DNA from: Rhizobium sp. Q54
GTDB taxonomy: Bacteria > Pseudomonadota > Alphaproteobacteria > Reyranellales > Reyranellaceae
Length of the DNA stretch: 64,000 bases
NCBI GenBank assembly: GCA_945903635.1
Contig: CAMDOT010000004.1
Location: 1 to 64,000 of the forward strand
Direction: 5' to 3'
Shown: in pieces, positions 56,826 to 64,000 of the stretch
Numbering within the stretch: position 1 is the first letter of the stretch
Layout: every line of letters begins with the position of its first letter
Position numbers and translations under genes: made by a program
The notes under the pieces: model-generated
Seen by the model: only the letters and a program-made list of their open reading frames with translations
Databases searched by the model: none
Told to the model about the DNA's origin: nothing

Positions 56826-56938
56826 CGCCCGAGACCTCCCTGGGAGATCGAATGGAAATACGGCGCGCGGCCAATTGCCCTTCGGCCGTTCCTGCTTGTA
56901 GGACTGCGTTCCCGGCTGTCCAACCTGAAAAGAGACAA

Positions 56939-57655
56939 ATGCGACCGGACGCTGCTCTCGAGGCACGGAGTGATCCTCCCGATGTGCCCTTCGCCGTGGA
57001 GTGTACGCCGCCGTTTCTGACGGCGCGCTTTGCCGTGCCTCAACGCACACTGGGCTGGTCGCTGCTCCACCCCGGCTTTGCCGTCGCCACCGATGTCGTC
57101 TGGGTCGAAGTTCGCAACAGCGATCTCGGTCCCTCGACCGATCCACGTGCTTTTCTGAAAGCGCGGCTGGCCCAGTCTGGGCTTCCGCAGGCGCTGGCCT
57201 TCATGACCTCTCGCGACATCCGCCGGCATCATTATTGCGAGCGCCGCGTCGATTCAATCTCGGCCGCCTGCCTGACCACGGTCGGTCTCTCGAATGGCGA
57301 GCGGGTCGGGTCTCGCAAGGCCTACGGGCCGTCCCGCGCCGGCACGATCAACACGCTGGTGCATGTTTCGGTGCCGCTGACCGACGGCGCCATGGTCGAA
57401 GCGCTGTCCATCGTGGCCGAAGCAAGGACCGCCGCCATTGTCGACTCGTGGCGCGCGGCGCGCGGGGCGACTGTCACCGGTACCGGGACGGACTGCATCG
57501 TGGTGGCCTCTCCATACCGCGGCGAGCCTCTCGCCTTCGCCGGCCTTCATACGGCCGTTGGCGAGGCGATCGGCGGCGCCGTCTACGACGCCACGCGGGC
57601 CGGCGCCGAGCAATGGGACCGGGATTTTCCGCAACCGCCGTCATTGCCTAGTTAA
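56939..57655 (+). CDS. cbiZ: adenosylcobinamide amidohydrolase CbiZ
   Basis: CbiZ cleaves the aminopropanol-type side chain of adenosylcobinamide (or of pseudo-cobamides) to adenosylcobyric acid, so cells can rebuild the corrinoid they need. The 238-aa product from the ATG at 56939 shows RTLGWSLLHPGF (36-47), AGTINTLVHVSVPL (134-147), EARTAAIVDSWR (161-172), TGTGTDCIVVASP (180-192) and AGLHTAVGEAIGGAVYDA (201-218), all family marks. An upstream ATG at 56852 is less likely. No riboswitch is evident in front. The B12 uptake operon lies 2.6 kb downstream. Confidence 0.88.
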   Translation: MRPDAALEARSDPPDVPFAVECTPPFLTARFAVPQRTLGWSLLHPGFAVATDVVWVEVRNSDLGPSTDPRAFLKARLAQSGLPQALAFMTSRDIRRHHYCERRVDSISAACLTTVGLSNGERVGSRKAYGPSRAGTINTLVHVSVPLTDGAMVEALSIVAEARTAAIVDSWRAARGATVTGTGTDCIVVASPYRGEPLAFAGLHTAVGEAIGGAVYDATRAGAEQWDRDFPQPPSLPS

Positions 57656-59793: not shown

Positions 59794-59950
59794 GCTTTCC
59801 AAGATCGGCTCCCCTCTGGCCCGCGCCCTCTGGTTCTGCGACCGGCAACATTCAACGACCGGCGCCGCCAAAAGTTGCCGAGGCCCGCTATCGCCCGGGA
59901 TTGCACAGCCGCAATCTTGACGTCGATCATTTGAGCGCGTAGCGATGAGG

Positions 59951-60141
59951 CATCGACGGTCCTCCTTAATCGGAGGTTAAAAGGGAATGCCGTGACACCC
60001 CCAAGCTCGCTTGCCAGGGGGTCAATCGGCAGCTGTACCCGCAGCTGTAAGCGGCGAGCGAGTGCCCAACGTGCCACTGGACTTCGGTCCGGGAAGGCGG
60101 GCGCAAGCTACGACCCGTGAGCCAGAAGACCTGCCGACGAT
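59951..60141 (+). ncRNA. cobalamin (B12) riboswitch
   Basis: Adenosylcobalamin-type leader of the btuB operon. The B12 box GCCAGAAGACCTGCC is at 60121-60135. Conserved core segments occur in order: GGTTAAAAGGGAATGCCGTG (from 59975), GCAGCTGTACCCGCAGCTGTAAGC (60029 on), and CCACTGG with GGTCCGGGAAGGCGG (60074-60100). The outer stem is suggested by ATCGACGG (59952) with CCGACGAT (60133). It lies 95 nt upstream of btuB, so the operon should be turned down when B12 is plentiful. Confidence 0.92.
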
Positions 60142-60235
60142 AGCGTCGCTCTTCCGATGGACGGGACAATCCAACGGGACGGTCAACCGAGCGGTGACGC
60201 GCCTTGTGCGTGGTGCTGTTTGAGGAGGCCGTCCG

Positions 60236-62137
60236 ATGACGCCGATCCGTCGATTCTTGCTATCCATTTTACTGCTTGTTCCTGTTCCCGCGCTCGCCCA
60301 GACCGAGCCCGTGGGCATGTCGCCCGAGGTCGTCGTCACCGCCGACCGCGTGCCGACGCCCATAGACAAGGTGACTGGCAGCATCACCGTGGTCACCAAC
60401 GCGGAGATGCAGCGCAACCAGTGGCGCACGGTGCAGGAAGTGCTGCGCTACGTGCCCGGCGTCTCGGTCCAGCAGTCCGGCGGTCCCGGCACGCAGACCT
60501 CGGTGTTCGTGCGCGGCGCCAATTCCAACCAGACGCTGGTGCTGATCGACGGCATCAACGTGAGCGATCCCGCGTCCGGCAACGGCGCGGTGGACTTCGC
60601 CCATTTCATGACCGAGAACCTCGATCGCGTCGAGATCGTGCGCGGGCCGATGAGCACGCTCTATGGCTCGCAGGCGATCGGCGGCGTCATCAACATGGTG
60701 ACCAAAGCCGGCAGCGGCAAGATGAACGGCGGCGCCTTCACCGAACTTGGCTCGCGGCTGCAGACCAACAGCGGCGGCTACCTGCGCGGCAGCGAGGGCC
60801 GCTTCAACTACAACTTCACGCTGGCCGGAACCTATGCGCCGGGTGAGACCATCGTGCCGGGGCGCTACACGCCGCCCGGCGGCTACGTCGACCTCGACGG
60901 CTACCGCAACATCACCGCCGCATCGCGTATGGGTATCGCGATCGATGACAACACCAACCTCACCTGGTTCAGCCGCTACATCGACACCCAGGTCAAGTTC
61001 GACCAGGTCGGCATGGAAGATCCCAATGCGACGGAATTCAGCCAGCAGTTCTACAATCGCCTCGAACTCGACGGCAATTACTTCGACGGGCGCTGGAAGC
61101 CGACGTTCGGCATCTCCTACACCAGCATCTATCGCCACGATCAGGATTTCCCGAGCCTGCAGAACCCGTTCCCGTTCGTGAAGGATGCCTACTACAACGG
61201 CCGCCGCCTGCAGGCCGACTGGAAGAACCAGGTCGCCGTCACCGAGATGTTCGACGTGGTGGCCGGCATCGACTACGACCGGTCGTGGGCCTACAGCAAC
61301 TCGGACGGTGCGCAGGGCTGGGGCACGATGGGCCAGACCGGCTTCTACGGCCAGGTCCGCGGCAATTTCATCAAGAACCTCACCGTCACGCTGGGCGGAC
61401 GTGTCGATGTGAACGATGTCTACGGCACGGTGTCGACCTGGCGCGCGGGTGCGACTTACCTGTTCGCCGACACCGACACGCGGTTCAAGGGATCGTACGG
61501 CACGGCCTTCAAGGCGCCGTCGCTGTTCGAGCTCTACGGCACCGGCCTGTTCTGCGGCGGCAACGTCAACCTGCGGCCGGAATACAACAAGGGCTACGAA
61601 TTCGGCGTCGAGCAGGGGCTGTACAACAAGAAGGTCTCGGTCGGGCTCACGTACTTCTTCAATAACTTCAGCAACCTGGTGCAATGCCCGCCGCCCTTCA
61701 CGACGCTGATGAACGTGGCCAAGGCGCAGAGCGAGGGCGTCGAGGCCTTCGTCAAGATGCAGCCGGTGAACTGGCTCGATATCAATGCCGACTTCACCTA
61801 CATGAACGCCCACGACCAGTACTACACGCCGCTGGTCCGCCGCCCGCAGAACACTTTCAGCCTGCGGGCCGAGGTACGGCCCTGGGACGGCGTGCGGCTC
61901 GGCATGGGCGTGTCGCAGGTGAGCGGCCGCTACGACTTCAGCGTCGCCCCGTTCAACCCGACCATCATCCAGCCTTCGCCCTACACGCTTCTGCGCTTCA
62001 CCGCGGCCTACGACGTGCGCCCGAACATCGAGCTGTTCGCCCGGGTCGAGAACGTGCTCAACCAGTCGTACGAGGAGCCGGAAGGATTCCAGGCGCCCTA
62101 CATCCAGGCCTTCGTCGGCATCAAGGGCAGGTTTTGA
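60236..62137 (+). CDS. btuB: TonB-dependent vitamin B12 receptor BtuB
   Basis: Outer-membrane receptor for cobalamin/cobinamide, 633 aa, with a GAGGAGG site. A signal peptide ends at about residue 21 (LVPVPALAQ). A TonB box (PEVVVTADR, about 30-38) and plug domain follow (DKVTGSITVVTNAEMQRNQWRTVQEVLRYVPGVSV, VRGANSNQTLVLIDGINVSD, EIVRGPMSTLYGSQAIGGVINM). A 22-strand barrel ends with a Phe-terminated strand (FVGIKGRF). The stop overlaps the start of the next gene (TTGA). Regulation is by the upstream riboswitch. Confidence 0.95.
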   Translation: MTPIRRFLLSILLLVPVPALAQTEPVGMSPEVVVTADRVPTPIDKVTGSITVVTNAEMQRNQWRTVQEVLRYVPGVSVQQSGGPGTQTSVFVRGANSNQTLVLIDGINVSDPASGNGAVDFAHFMTENLDRVEIVRGPMSTLYGSQAIGGVINMVTKAGSGKMNGGAFTELGSRLQTNSGGYLRGSEGRFNYNFTLAGTYAPGETIVPGRYTPPGGYVDLDGYRNITAASRMGIAIDDNTNLTWFSRYIDTQVKFDQVGMEDPNATEFSQQFYNRLELDGNYFDGRWKPTFGISYTSIYRHDQDFPSLQNPFPFVKDAYYNGRRLQADWKNQVAVTEMFDVVAGIDYDRSWAYSNSDGAQGWGTMGQTGFYGQVRGNFIKNLTVTLGGRVDVNDVYGTVSTWRAGATYLFADTDTRFKGSYGTAFKAPSLFELYGTGLFCGGNVNLRPEYNKGYEFGVEQGLYNKKVSVGLTYFFNNFSNLVQCPPPFTTLMNVAKAQSEGVEAFVKMQPVNWLDINADFTYMNAHDQYYTPLVRRPQNTFSLRAEVRPWDGVRLGMGVSQVSGRYDFSVAPFNPTIIQPSPYTLLRFTAAYDVRPNIELFARVENVLNQSYEEPEGFQAPYIQAFVGIKGRF

Positions 62138-62916
62138 GCACCGCCCCGGTCACGATCGCCCTTCTTCATCTGGCGCCACGCGCGGGAGATGTCGACGGGA
62201 ACAGACAAAGCATCGAGGCCGCCGTGCTTCAGGCCTCGGCGCTCGGCGCCGCCCTGGTCGTCAGTCCGGAACTGGCGACCAGCGGCTACGGCTTCCGCGA
62301 CCTCATCGGCACCGGCTGGATCGCCCGCGGCCAGCCGGCGCTTTTCGGCTGGGCCGGCGATCTCGCGCGCCGCGCCTCGACATCCTTGCTGCTCGGTACA
62401 CCCGAAGCGGCACCGGGCAGCGCGGAGCTGTTCAACAGCCTGATCCTGTTCGCGGCAGACGGGACGCGGGCGGGTCACCATCGCAAGATCAATGTGCTCA
62501 GAGTCGGCTCGGAATCATGGTCGGTGCCGGGCGATCGTCCGACCGTCCTCGCCATCGACGGCGTGGGCCGCGTTGGGCTTTTCGTCTGCGCCGACATGCA
62601 TTCGCAGCGGCTGATACAGGAGACCATGGCCCTCGGCGTCGATCTCCTGCTGTCGTCTGCCGCCTGGGCGCCGGGTGACCATGGGCCAAACGGCGAATGG
62701 AAGTGGGCATCGCGGACGACGGGGCGGCCGGTGCTGGTCTGCAACCGCACCGGGCCCGACGTGCTCGATTTCAGCAGCGCGCGGTCGGTCGCAGCCGTCG
62801 ACGGCGCCATCGTCCACGCCCATCAATCCGCCGGACCGGCGATTGTGCTGGTCGACTGGAGTGCGCAGGCTGGCGAATTAAAGAATTGGCGTGTCGTCGC
62901 TGTCGAGGAACAATAG
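62134..62916 (+). CDS. nitrilase-superfamily carbon-nitrogen hydrolase in the B12 operon
   Basis: The 260-aa protein has a TTG start at 62134 that overlaps the btuB stop. It carries the nitrilase catalytic triad in order: Glu46 (VSPELATSGYGF), Lys118 (HHRKINVLRVG) and Cys152 (VGLFVCADMHS). Such enzymes hydrolyse amides or C-N bonds with a Cys nucleophile. It lies between btuB and btuF with no gap, so it is co-expressed with B12 uptake. The natural substrate could be a corrinoid amide or an unrelated metabolite; sequence alone cannot say. It ends 0 nt before btuF. Confidence 0.85.
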   Translation: MSTAPVTIALLHLAPRAGDVDGNRQSIEAAVLQASALGAALVVSPELATSGYGFRDLIGTGWIARGQPALFGWAGDLARRASTSLLLGTPEAAPGSAELFNSLILFAADGTRAGHHRKINVLRVGSESWSVPGDRPTVLAIDGVGRVGLFVCADMHSQRLIQETMALGVDLLLSSAAWAPGDHGPNGEWKWASRTTGRPVLVCNRTGPDVLDFSSARSVAAVDGAIVHAHQSAGPAIVLVDWSAQAGELKNWRVVAVEEQ

Positions 62917-63729
62917 TTGATCCGCTGGCTCGTTCTCGTGTTGCTGCTGATCGGAGTTGGCCCTCTGCAGGCGCAATCTCCGAAGCGCGTCGTCACGGTC
63001 AATCTCTGCCTCGACCAGCTCGCGCTTCGGCTGGCGGCGCCGGGCCAGCTCGTGGGCGTCAGCTACCTCTCGCTCGATCCCCGGATTTCCGTGCAGGTCG
63101 ACAAGGCGCGCGCGATTGCCCCGGTCCGCGCCACCGTCGAGTCGATCCTCGAGCTGCGGCCCGACCTCGTGATCTTCGACAGTGTCGCCCACGCCAACCA
63201 GAAGCGCCTGCTGCGCGGCGCCGGCGTGCCGCTGCTGGAACTGCCGTGGGCGGCCTCGCTCGAGGCCACTGAAGAGCTGATCTCCCGGATGGCAGCGGCG
63301 CTGGGCCGCGAGGAGGTCGGCCGAGCGCTGATCGCCGACATGCAGGCCGACCGCCGCCGGCTCACCTGGCAAGGGCCGCTCACTGCCACGGCCGCCGTGC
63401 TGCAGCCCAACCGCGGCACCGCCGGCAAACGCAGCCTGATGGATGAATTGCTGAGGCTCGCGGGCCTGCGCAATCTTGCGGCCGAACTCGGCATCCCGGC
63501 CTACGGCCGCCTGTCGCTCGAGTCGGTGCTCGCCGGCAAGCCGGACATGCTGGTGTTCGATGGCGTCGCCAATGCAAGTCCGGCACGGGCCACCGAATTC
63601 GTCGATCATCATGCCCTGTCGAGCCTGGCCGGCCGGGCGCGTATCGTGTCGCTGCCGATGAAGTACGCCGTCTGCGCCGGCCCGGAGAATTTTGAAGTAG
63701 TACGGTTGCTCGCCGAGGCCCGCCGATGA
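62917..63729 (+). CDS. btuF: cobalamin ABC-transporter binding protein BtuF
   Basis: The 270-aa periplasmic binding protein has a TTG start directly after the stop of the hydrolase gene. A signal peptide (LVLVLLLIGVGPLQAQ) precedes the two-lobe fold of the Peripla_BP_2 family, with VTVNLCLDQLALRLAAPGQLVGVS and the ELRPDLVIFDSVAHANQKRLLRGAGVPLLELP segment. It delivers corrinoid to BtuC. Its stop overlaps the permease ATG by 4 nt. Confidence 0.85.
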   Translation: MIRWLVLVLLLIGVGPLQAQSPKRVVTVNLCLDQLALRLAAPGQLVGVSYLSLDPRISVQVDKARAIAPVRATVESILELRPDLVIFDSVAHANQKRLLRGAGVPLLELPWAASLEATEELISRMAAALGREEVGRALIADMQADRRRLTWQGPLTATAAVLQPNRGTAGKRSLMDELLRLAGLRNLAAELGIPAYGRLSLESVLAGKPDMLVFDGVANASPARATEFVDHHALSSLAGRARIVSLPMKYAVCAGPENFEVVRLLAEARR

Positions 63730-64000
63730 GTAGTGCTGCGATGAGGGGCGCGGCGCTGAACCGATGGCTTTGCCTTCTGGTGCTGGTCCTCTTCGCCGGC
63801 TCGCTGGCCACGGGTCCCGTGCTGTGGCCGTGGCGCCTGGGCAACGAGGTCGGCTGGGCGATCGTGTGGGAGTTGCGTGTGCCGCGCGCCACGCTCGGCC
63901 TGCTGATCGGCGGGGCGCTCGGCCTCAGCGGCGCGGCGCTGCAGGGCTGGCTGCGCAATCCGCTGGTGGAACCGGGCGTCATCGGCGTCTCGGCCTGCGC
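63726..64000 (+). CDS. btuC: FecCD/BtuC-type permease (N-terminal part, cut by window edge)
   Basis: The 91 residues visible include a first membrane helix (WLCLLVLVLFAGSLATGPV), then the family-typical WELRVPRATLGLLIGGALGLSGAALQGWLRNPLVEPGVIGVS. The last is the LRxPR...QG..RNPLA.P..LG signature of FecCD permeases. ATG at 63726 overlaps the btuF stop. The context makes it the cobalamin permease; the ATPase is presumably beyond the window. Confidence 0.9.
   Translation, partial: MSSAAMRGAALNRWLCLLVLVLFAGSLATGPVLWPWRLGNEVGWAIVWELRVPRATLGLLIGGALGLSGAALQGWLRNPLVEPGVIGVSAC

Follow-up and report, generated by a model that had tools for sequence, protein, structure and literature searches.

A nitrilase-family gene linked to riboswitch-controlled B12 uptake operons in Reyranellaceae: a candidate accessory amidase of corrinoid uptake

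The nit gene and the operon that contains it

The stretch of DNA analyzed here, hereafter the window, comprises 64,000 nucleotides and corresponds to positions 1 to 64,000 of contig CAMDOT010000004.1 of Rhizobium sp. Q54 (Reyranellaceae). Towards its end, a full-length cobalamin riboswitch aptamer (RF00174, 128.7 bits; 59940..60152, + strand) is followed on the same strand by a btuB-like gene encoding a TonB-dependent receptor of 633 amino acids (60236..62137; TIGR01779, E 9e-89, a score below the cut-off), by a gene of the nitrilase superfamily that we call nit (62134-62916), by a btuF-like gene encoding a periplasmic corrinoid-binding protein with a signal peptide (62917..63729; Peripla_BP_2) and by the btuC permease gene (63726..64000, running on to contig position 64712 beyond the window; FecCD). 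Past the window edge the contig carries btuD (about 64726-65505) and a gene for a DUF6925 protein (65502-66167), which gives the order riboswitch-btuB-nit-btuF-btuC-btuD-DUF6925. The co-directional nit and btu genes behind the riboswitch are predicted from sequence to form an operon. The adenosylcobinamide amidohydrolase gene cbiZ (56936..57655, + strand; PF01955, E 4.1e-48; start codon uncertain) ends 2.6 kb before btuB. An earlier, sequence-only reading of this DNA had brought cbiZ into play at this very distance; its presence and distance were confirmed, but it does not belong to the operon, since other genes intervene, one of them on the opposite strand.

The nit open reading frame encodes 260 amino acids with no signal peptide. 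Its TTG start codon (62134-62136) overlaps the TGA stop codon of btuB (62135-62137), so that the two genes share 4 bases, and btuF starts at 62917, directly after the nit stop codon. A possible ribosome-binding site (AAGGG) lies about 6 nt 5' of the TTG, and no alternative in-frame start codon was found within 70 codons upstream. These coordinates bear out the earlier description of a gene that overlaps btuB, abuts btuF and sits behind a B12 riboswitch.

The only Pfam match of Nit is CN_hydrolase (PF00795; E 6.5e-19, 68.7 bits as compared to a cut-off of 23.2), and the CbiZ domain (PF01955) is not present. The predicted catalytic triad Glu46-Lys118-Cys152 is intact. Read at first from one sequence, it proved to be invariant in all 25 aligned orthologs (described below), as are a second glutamate (E127), W129 and the motifs HGPxGEW and NRTG. 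The dN/dS ratio between the window copy and its nearest relative (87% identity) is 0.23, which indicates purifying selection. A scan of genome contigs with Nit as a single-protein query returned only one close relative and one distant nitrilase; within the genome of the window, the nearest paralog of Nit is a NadE-like protein of 542 amino acids. A structure prediction made with two sequences reached a mean pLDDT of 36 and was set aside. Taken with the recurrence described below, these data support nit as a genuine nitrilase-family gene tied to corrinoid uptake.

Recurrence of nit beside corrinoid uptake genes

The family was sampled with 75 genomes, 65 of which belong to the genus of the window. 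Orthologs of nit (at least 63% identity) were found in 25 of the 75, all in this genus. The BtuC ortholog of the window is likewise present in 25 of the 65 genus genomes: 24 have both genes, 39 have neither, and there is one exception of each kind (Fisher p 1.5e-15, a value that ignores relatedness and is therefore descriptive). In the first exception (G047), nit lies on a contig that ends in btuF; in the second (G012), the absence of nit is clean, btuB and btuF being adjacent without an intervening nit. The gene is directly 5' of btuF in 23 of the 25 loci, usually after btuB or straight behind the riboswitch; at some of these no adjacent btuB was found, and nit is preceded directly by the riboswitch or by the contig end. 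In one genome (G065), btuB lies about 2.5 kb downstream of nit. In another (G050), nit lies outside the btu operon, in an operon of the order AMP-binding ligase-nit-TctC behind a cobalamin riboswitch, and the btu genes are on another contig with a riboswitch of their own. The sequence-only reading had staked its proposal on a recurrent linkage with btu genes in other genomes; such linkage does recur, both across this genus and in another lineage described below.

Eight genomes of sister genera carry btuBFCD without nit. Together with G012, they indicate that nit is not required for B12 import. Genomes that make B12 and have no btu genes also have no nit, so that nit tracks the presence of BtuFCD and not B12 in general.

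Three other observations concern the neighborhood of these loci. In four genomes of the genus, the gene for an AMP-binding (acyl-adenylating) enzyme is immediately preceded by a cobalamin riboswitch of its own (L091 2217-3986, L053 13391-15160, L048 13356-15050 and L052 7608-9434); the four enzymes are 64-66% identical, and three are encoded close to the btu operon. The DUF6925 protein recurs at L038, L044, L045, L046, L048, L049, L050, L051, L053, L092 and L096, where it adjoins btu genes or a riboswitch and sometimes cbiZ, and is a candidate corrinoid gene. A TctC-type binding protein is encoded directly after nit at L050 (10869-11846) and L052 (10369-11388), in the two genomes where nit is not beside btuF.

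In a sample of the class (385 genomes), no Nit matches were obtained outside the genus of the window at E 1e-40. A sample of the phylum (398 genomes) added a single genome with strong matches, and the family of that genome (397 genomes) contained four genomes of one genus with five nit loci; no further members were found in a 337-genome sample of the corresponding order. These sequences, all from a single additional genus of alphaproteobacteria, make up a second clade (44% identity). Beside nit, they have a cassette made of a riboswitch-led TonB receptor, a DUF7676 protein and a membrane protein of 184 residues, with CbiZ in the cassette at four of the five loci. In four loci nit is upstream of the riboswitch, and at L114 it occupies the far end of the cassette on the opposite strand; owing to this position and orientation, nit of the second clade is linked to the uptake genes but not obviously riboswitch-controlled.

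The same arrangement of riboswitch, TonB receptor, DUF7676 or hypothetical protein and 184-residue membrane protein was observed amid integrases and transposases at L109, L110, L115, L116 and L123 (Methylocella tundrae plasmid p2). It occurs with or without nit and cbiZ and resembles a mobile unit for corrinoid uptake that includes a candidate inner-membrane protein. The identification of the 184-residue protein as BtuM was considered and not adopted, because a comparison of the second-lineage protein with solved structures gave no match.

The second-clade nit loci also sit among transposases, and in the genus of the window the btu-nit operon is patchy. Both features would suit a passenger gene with no B12 link, carried along in a mobile btu cassette. 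We hold this to be very improbable, given that nit is kept in 24 of 25 btu genomes over a deep divergence (63-87% identity), is under purifying selection and is linked to uptake genes again in the second lineage. The number of independent origins of the nit-B12 linkage is nevertheless small.

A more distant relative (38-40% identity), encoded on a Peribacillus plasmid, shares the motifs WS, HGPxGEW and VCNRxG with Nit and adjoins germination genes, not B12 genes. This relative bears on the main rival to a role of Nit on the corrinoid itself. In that alternative, Nit would hydrolyse an amide unrelated to corrinoids, for instance a primary amide resembling glutamine or the amide of an exported peptide, the supply of which is important under B12 shortage; Nit would share the riboswitch and not the cargo. 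The operon of G050, with a ligase and TctC in place of btu genes, would fit such a role, as would the closest described relatives of Nit, which are NAD synthetase glutaminase domains and small-amide hydrolases. We nonetheless consider it rather unlikely, because nit follows BtuFCD, is missing from B12-making genomes without btu, and in the second lineage is again beside uptake genes and cbiZ.

Cell compartment of Nit and cobamide genes of its hosts

Signal sequences were called by the RR motif and hydropathy alone. A twin-arginine type N-terminus, in which the RR motif is followed by a hydrophobic stretch, was found in 17 of the 25 orthologs (for example RRNLLQVFAGGVAFATVTPATA), and is absent from the remaining eight, that is, the window copy, its sister and six others. 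Most orthologs are thus probably periplasmic, as judged from their N-termini. The sequence-only reading had seen no signal peptide and had placed the enzyme in the cytoplasm: the former holds for the window copy but not for most orthologs, and the cytoplasmic site is not general. An enzyme confined to the cytoplasm was therefore rejected for the family as a whole. On the nit tree, the compartment changed at least four times. The junction TTTTGAG is common to nit of the window and to the signal-bearing nit of G013 and G030, so that genes with a signal and genes lacking one probably begin at the same TTG. No signal was seen in the second-clade sequences that were read, and inspection of the labelled tree by eye showed no evident association between the signal peptide and either CbiZ or CbiB.

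A linkage to uptake genes that is kept while the compartment changes fits a substrate that the enzyme can encounter in the periplasm as well as in the cytoplasm, such as the cargo of a transport system, and this is the strongest indirect argument for an action of Nit on the cargo. The position of the gene between btuB and btuF, together with the export signal of most relatives, might also suggest a protein that binds the corrinoid and hands it over from BtuB to BtuF, its cysteine coordinating the cobalt and its catalytic activity being of secondary importance. This seems improbable, however, because all catalytic residues are invariant and because a carrier located in the cytoplasm, as several of the orthologs are, would be of no use to BtuF.

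Rebuilding a cobamide from cobyric acid needs CbiB. CobN is absent, or weakly matched below the cut-off, in 12 of the 25 nit hosts, and these 12 include all nine hosts in which CbiB is absent; the other 16 have CbiB. Missing-gene calls in draft genomes carry a risk, but three of the nine CbiB-less hosts (G026, G053 and G066) are 98-99% complete. Seven of the nine have CobS and eight a CobT match (two of them partial). Such hosts are probably able to complete a cobamide if they start from cobinamide, but not if they start from cobyric acid, and a cleavage of the CbiZ type, which yields the latter, would lead them nowhere. CbiZ was found in 10 of the 25 nit hosts and is absent from 15. It tracks CbiB (9 of the 10 CbiZ hosts have CbiB; p 0.04), whereas nit does not. 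The host with CbiZ in which no CbiB was found is G030 (L102 7244-7909); this genome has 8% contamination, and the finding is possibly an artefact.

The bond cleaved by CbiZ is the amide adjacent to the aminopropanol linker, after which several gene products must complete the cobamide again (PMC7733943). An amidase-family protein in a corrinoid operon might do this job by another fold: imported cobinamide or cobamides would be cleaved at the aminopropanol amide, and the resulting cobyric acid would enter remodelling. CbiB is at hand in 16 of the 25 hosts. Yet nine hosts have no CbiB and have mostly kept CobS and CobT, nit does not follow CbiB as CbiZ does, and nit and CbiZ co-occur with no sign of replacement, which makes this role very improbable. 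The suggestion of the sequence-only reading that an amide of the nucleotide loop is processed in conjunction with CbiZ does not agree with the 15 hosts that lack CbiZ and the nine that lack CbiB. The formation of cobyric acid as a general function of Nit was set aside on the distribution of CbiB and CobN, and Nit as a replacement of CbiZ was rejected on their co-occurrence. Removal of cyanide from cyanocobalamin was also considered as an activity of Nit; the present observations weigh neither towards it nor away from it.

Proposed role and comparison with known systems

The reading that we prefer, to which we assign a probability of just under one half, is that Nit is an accessory amidase of riboswitch-controlled corrinoid uptake, with either the imported corrinoid or an amide-linked form of that corrinoid as its target. 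We infer here that the substrate is a corrinoid, that the bond is an amide and that Nit is exported. When B12 is scarce, the riboswitch would permit the expression of btuB-nit-btuFCD; BtuB would carry the corrinoid into the periplasm and BtuFCD would move it on to the cytoplasm. As a cysteine-dependent amidase, in which Cys152 would attack with the help of Glu46 and Lys118, Nit would hydrolyse an amide bond, either in the corrinoid being transported or in its amide-linked form, leaving the nucleotide loop on. In most relatives this would take place in the periplasm following twin-arginine export; in the lineage of the window, where the signal was lost or never present, it would take place in the cytoplasm after import. 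Since many hosts are unable to regenerate a cobamide once it has been cut down to cobyric acid, the product would remain a cobinamide or a cobamide.

An action on the cargo is favored by the near one-to-one co-occurrence of nit and BtuC, by the cobalamin riboswitch that still precedes nit in G050, by the second clade beside a riboswitch and a TonB receptor at only 44% identity, and by the retention of nit in the 12 CobN-poor hosts. Against it stand the btuBFCD sets without nit of G012 and the eight sister-genus genomes, the Peribacillus relative away from B12 genes, and the fact that the nearest characterised relatives are not enzymes of bulky corrinoids. Tentatively, we further suggest that Nit could catalyse a previously undescribed step of corrinoid salvage, in which the corrinoid is trimmed or released either in the periplasm or immediately after its import. 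Such a step would be chemically unlike the remodelling based on CbiZ, CbiR and CobS, and B12 auxotrophs lacking CbiB could use it.

The uptake of B12 is usually seen as pure transport, with remodelling carried out inside the cell by CbiZ or CbiR. The near-universal presence of nit in the B12 import operons of this genus points to an extra step in uptake, and a conserved, often exported candidate amidase in hosts unable to make or rebuild B12 implies extra chemistry during entry. Corrinoid forms in nature perhaps need unmasking before use. In the open literature searched, we found no account of a nitrilase in B12 uptake; the sole paper sharing our search terms deals with MtnU of methionine salvage.

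Among described families, the best match of Nit is the glutaminase domain of NadE (NF010588, PDB 5kha), which aligns with Nit residues 6-250 (E 4.9e-16) and has the triad in the same order. The NadE equivalog test failed (58.2 bits as compared to a cut-off of 479, over profile positions 5-252 of 546 only). In contrast to NadE, Nit stands alone, without a synthetase domain, carries conserved HGPxGEW and VCNRTG motifs in place of the NadE loops, and is often predicted to be exported. The NCBIfam models for aguB, archaeal nitrilase and deaminated glutathione amidase gave 20-31 bits with the window protein as compared to cut-offs of 355-500, and the formamidase model gave weak matches in six orthologs only, with the cut-off not reached. 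Nit is therefore a new branch of a known enzyme superfamily.

The operon, in turn, is a variant of the btu system. It has the gene set, order and control of BtuBFCD behind a cobalamin riboswitch, but standard btu operons, those of the sister genera included, have no nitrilase. With CbiZ, Nit shares an amide hydrolysis tied to corrinoid uptake, inferred in the case of Nit, and the two genes are co-located in the second lineage; the proteins, however, belong to unrelated families (PF01955 and PF00795), and it is CbiZ and not nit that follows CbiB. In the biotinidase/vanin branch of the nitrilases, which is eukaryotic and concerns a different vitamin, an exported amidase frees a vitamin from an amide, and this may serve as a working analogy for Nit.
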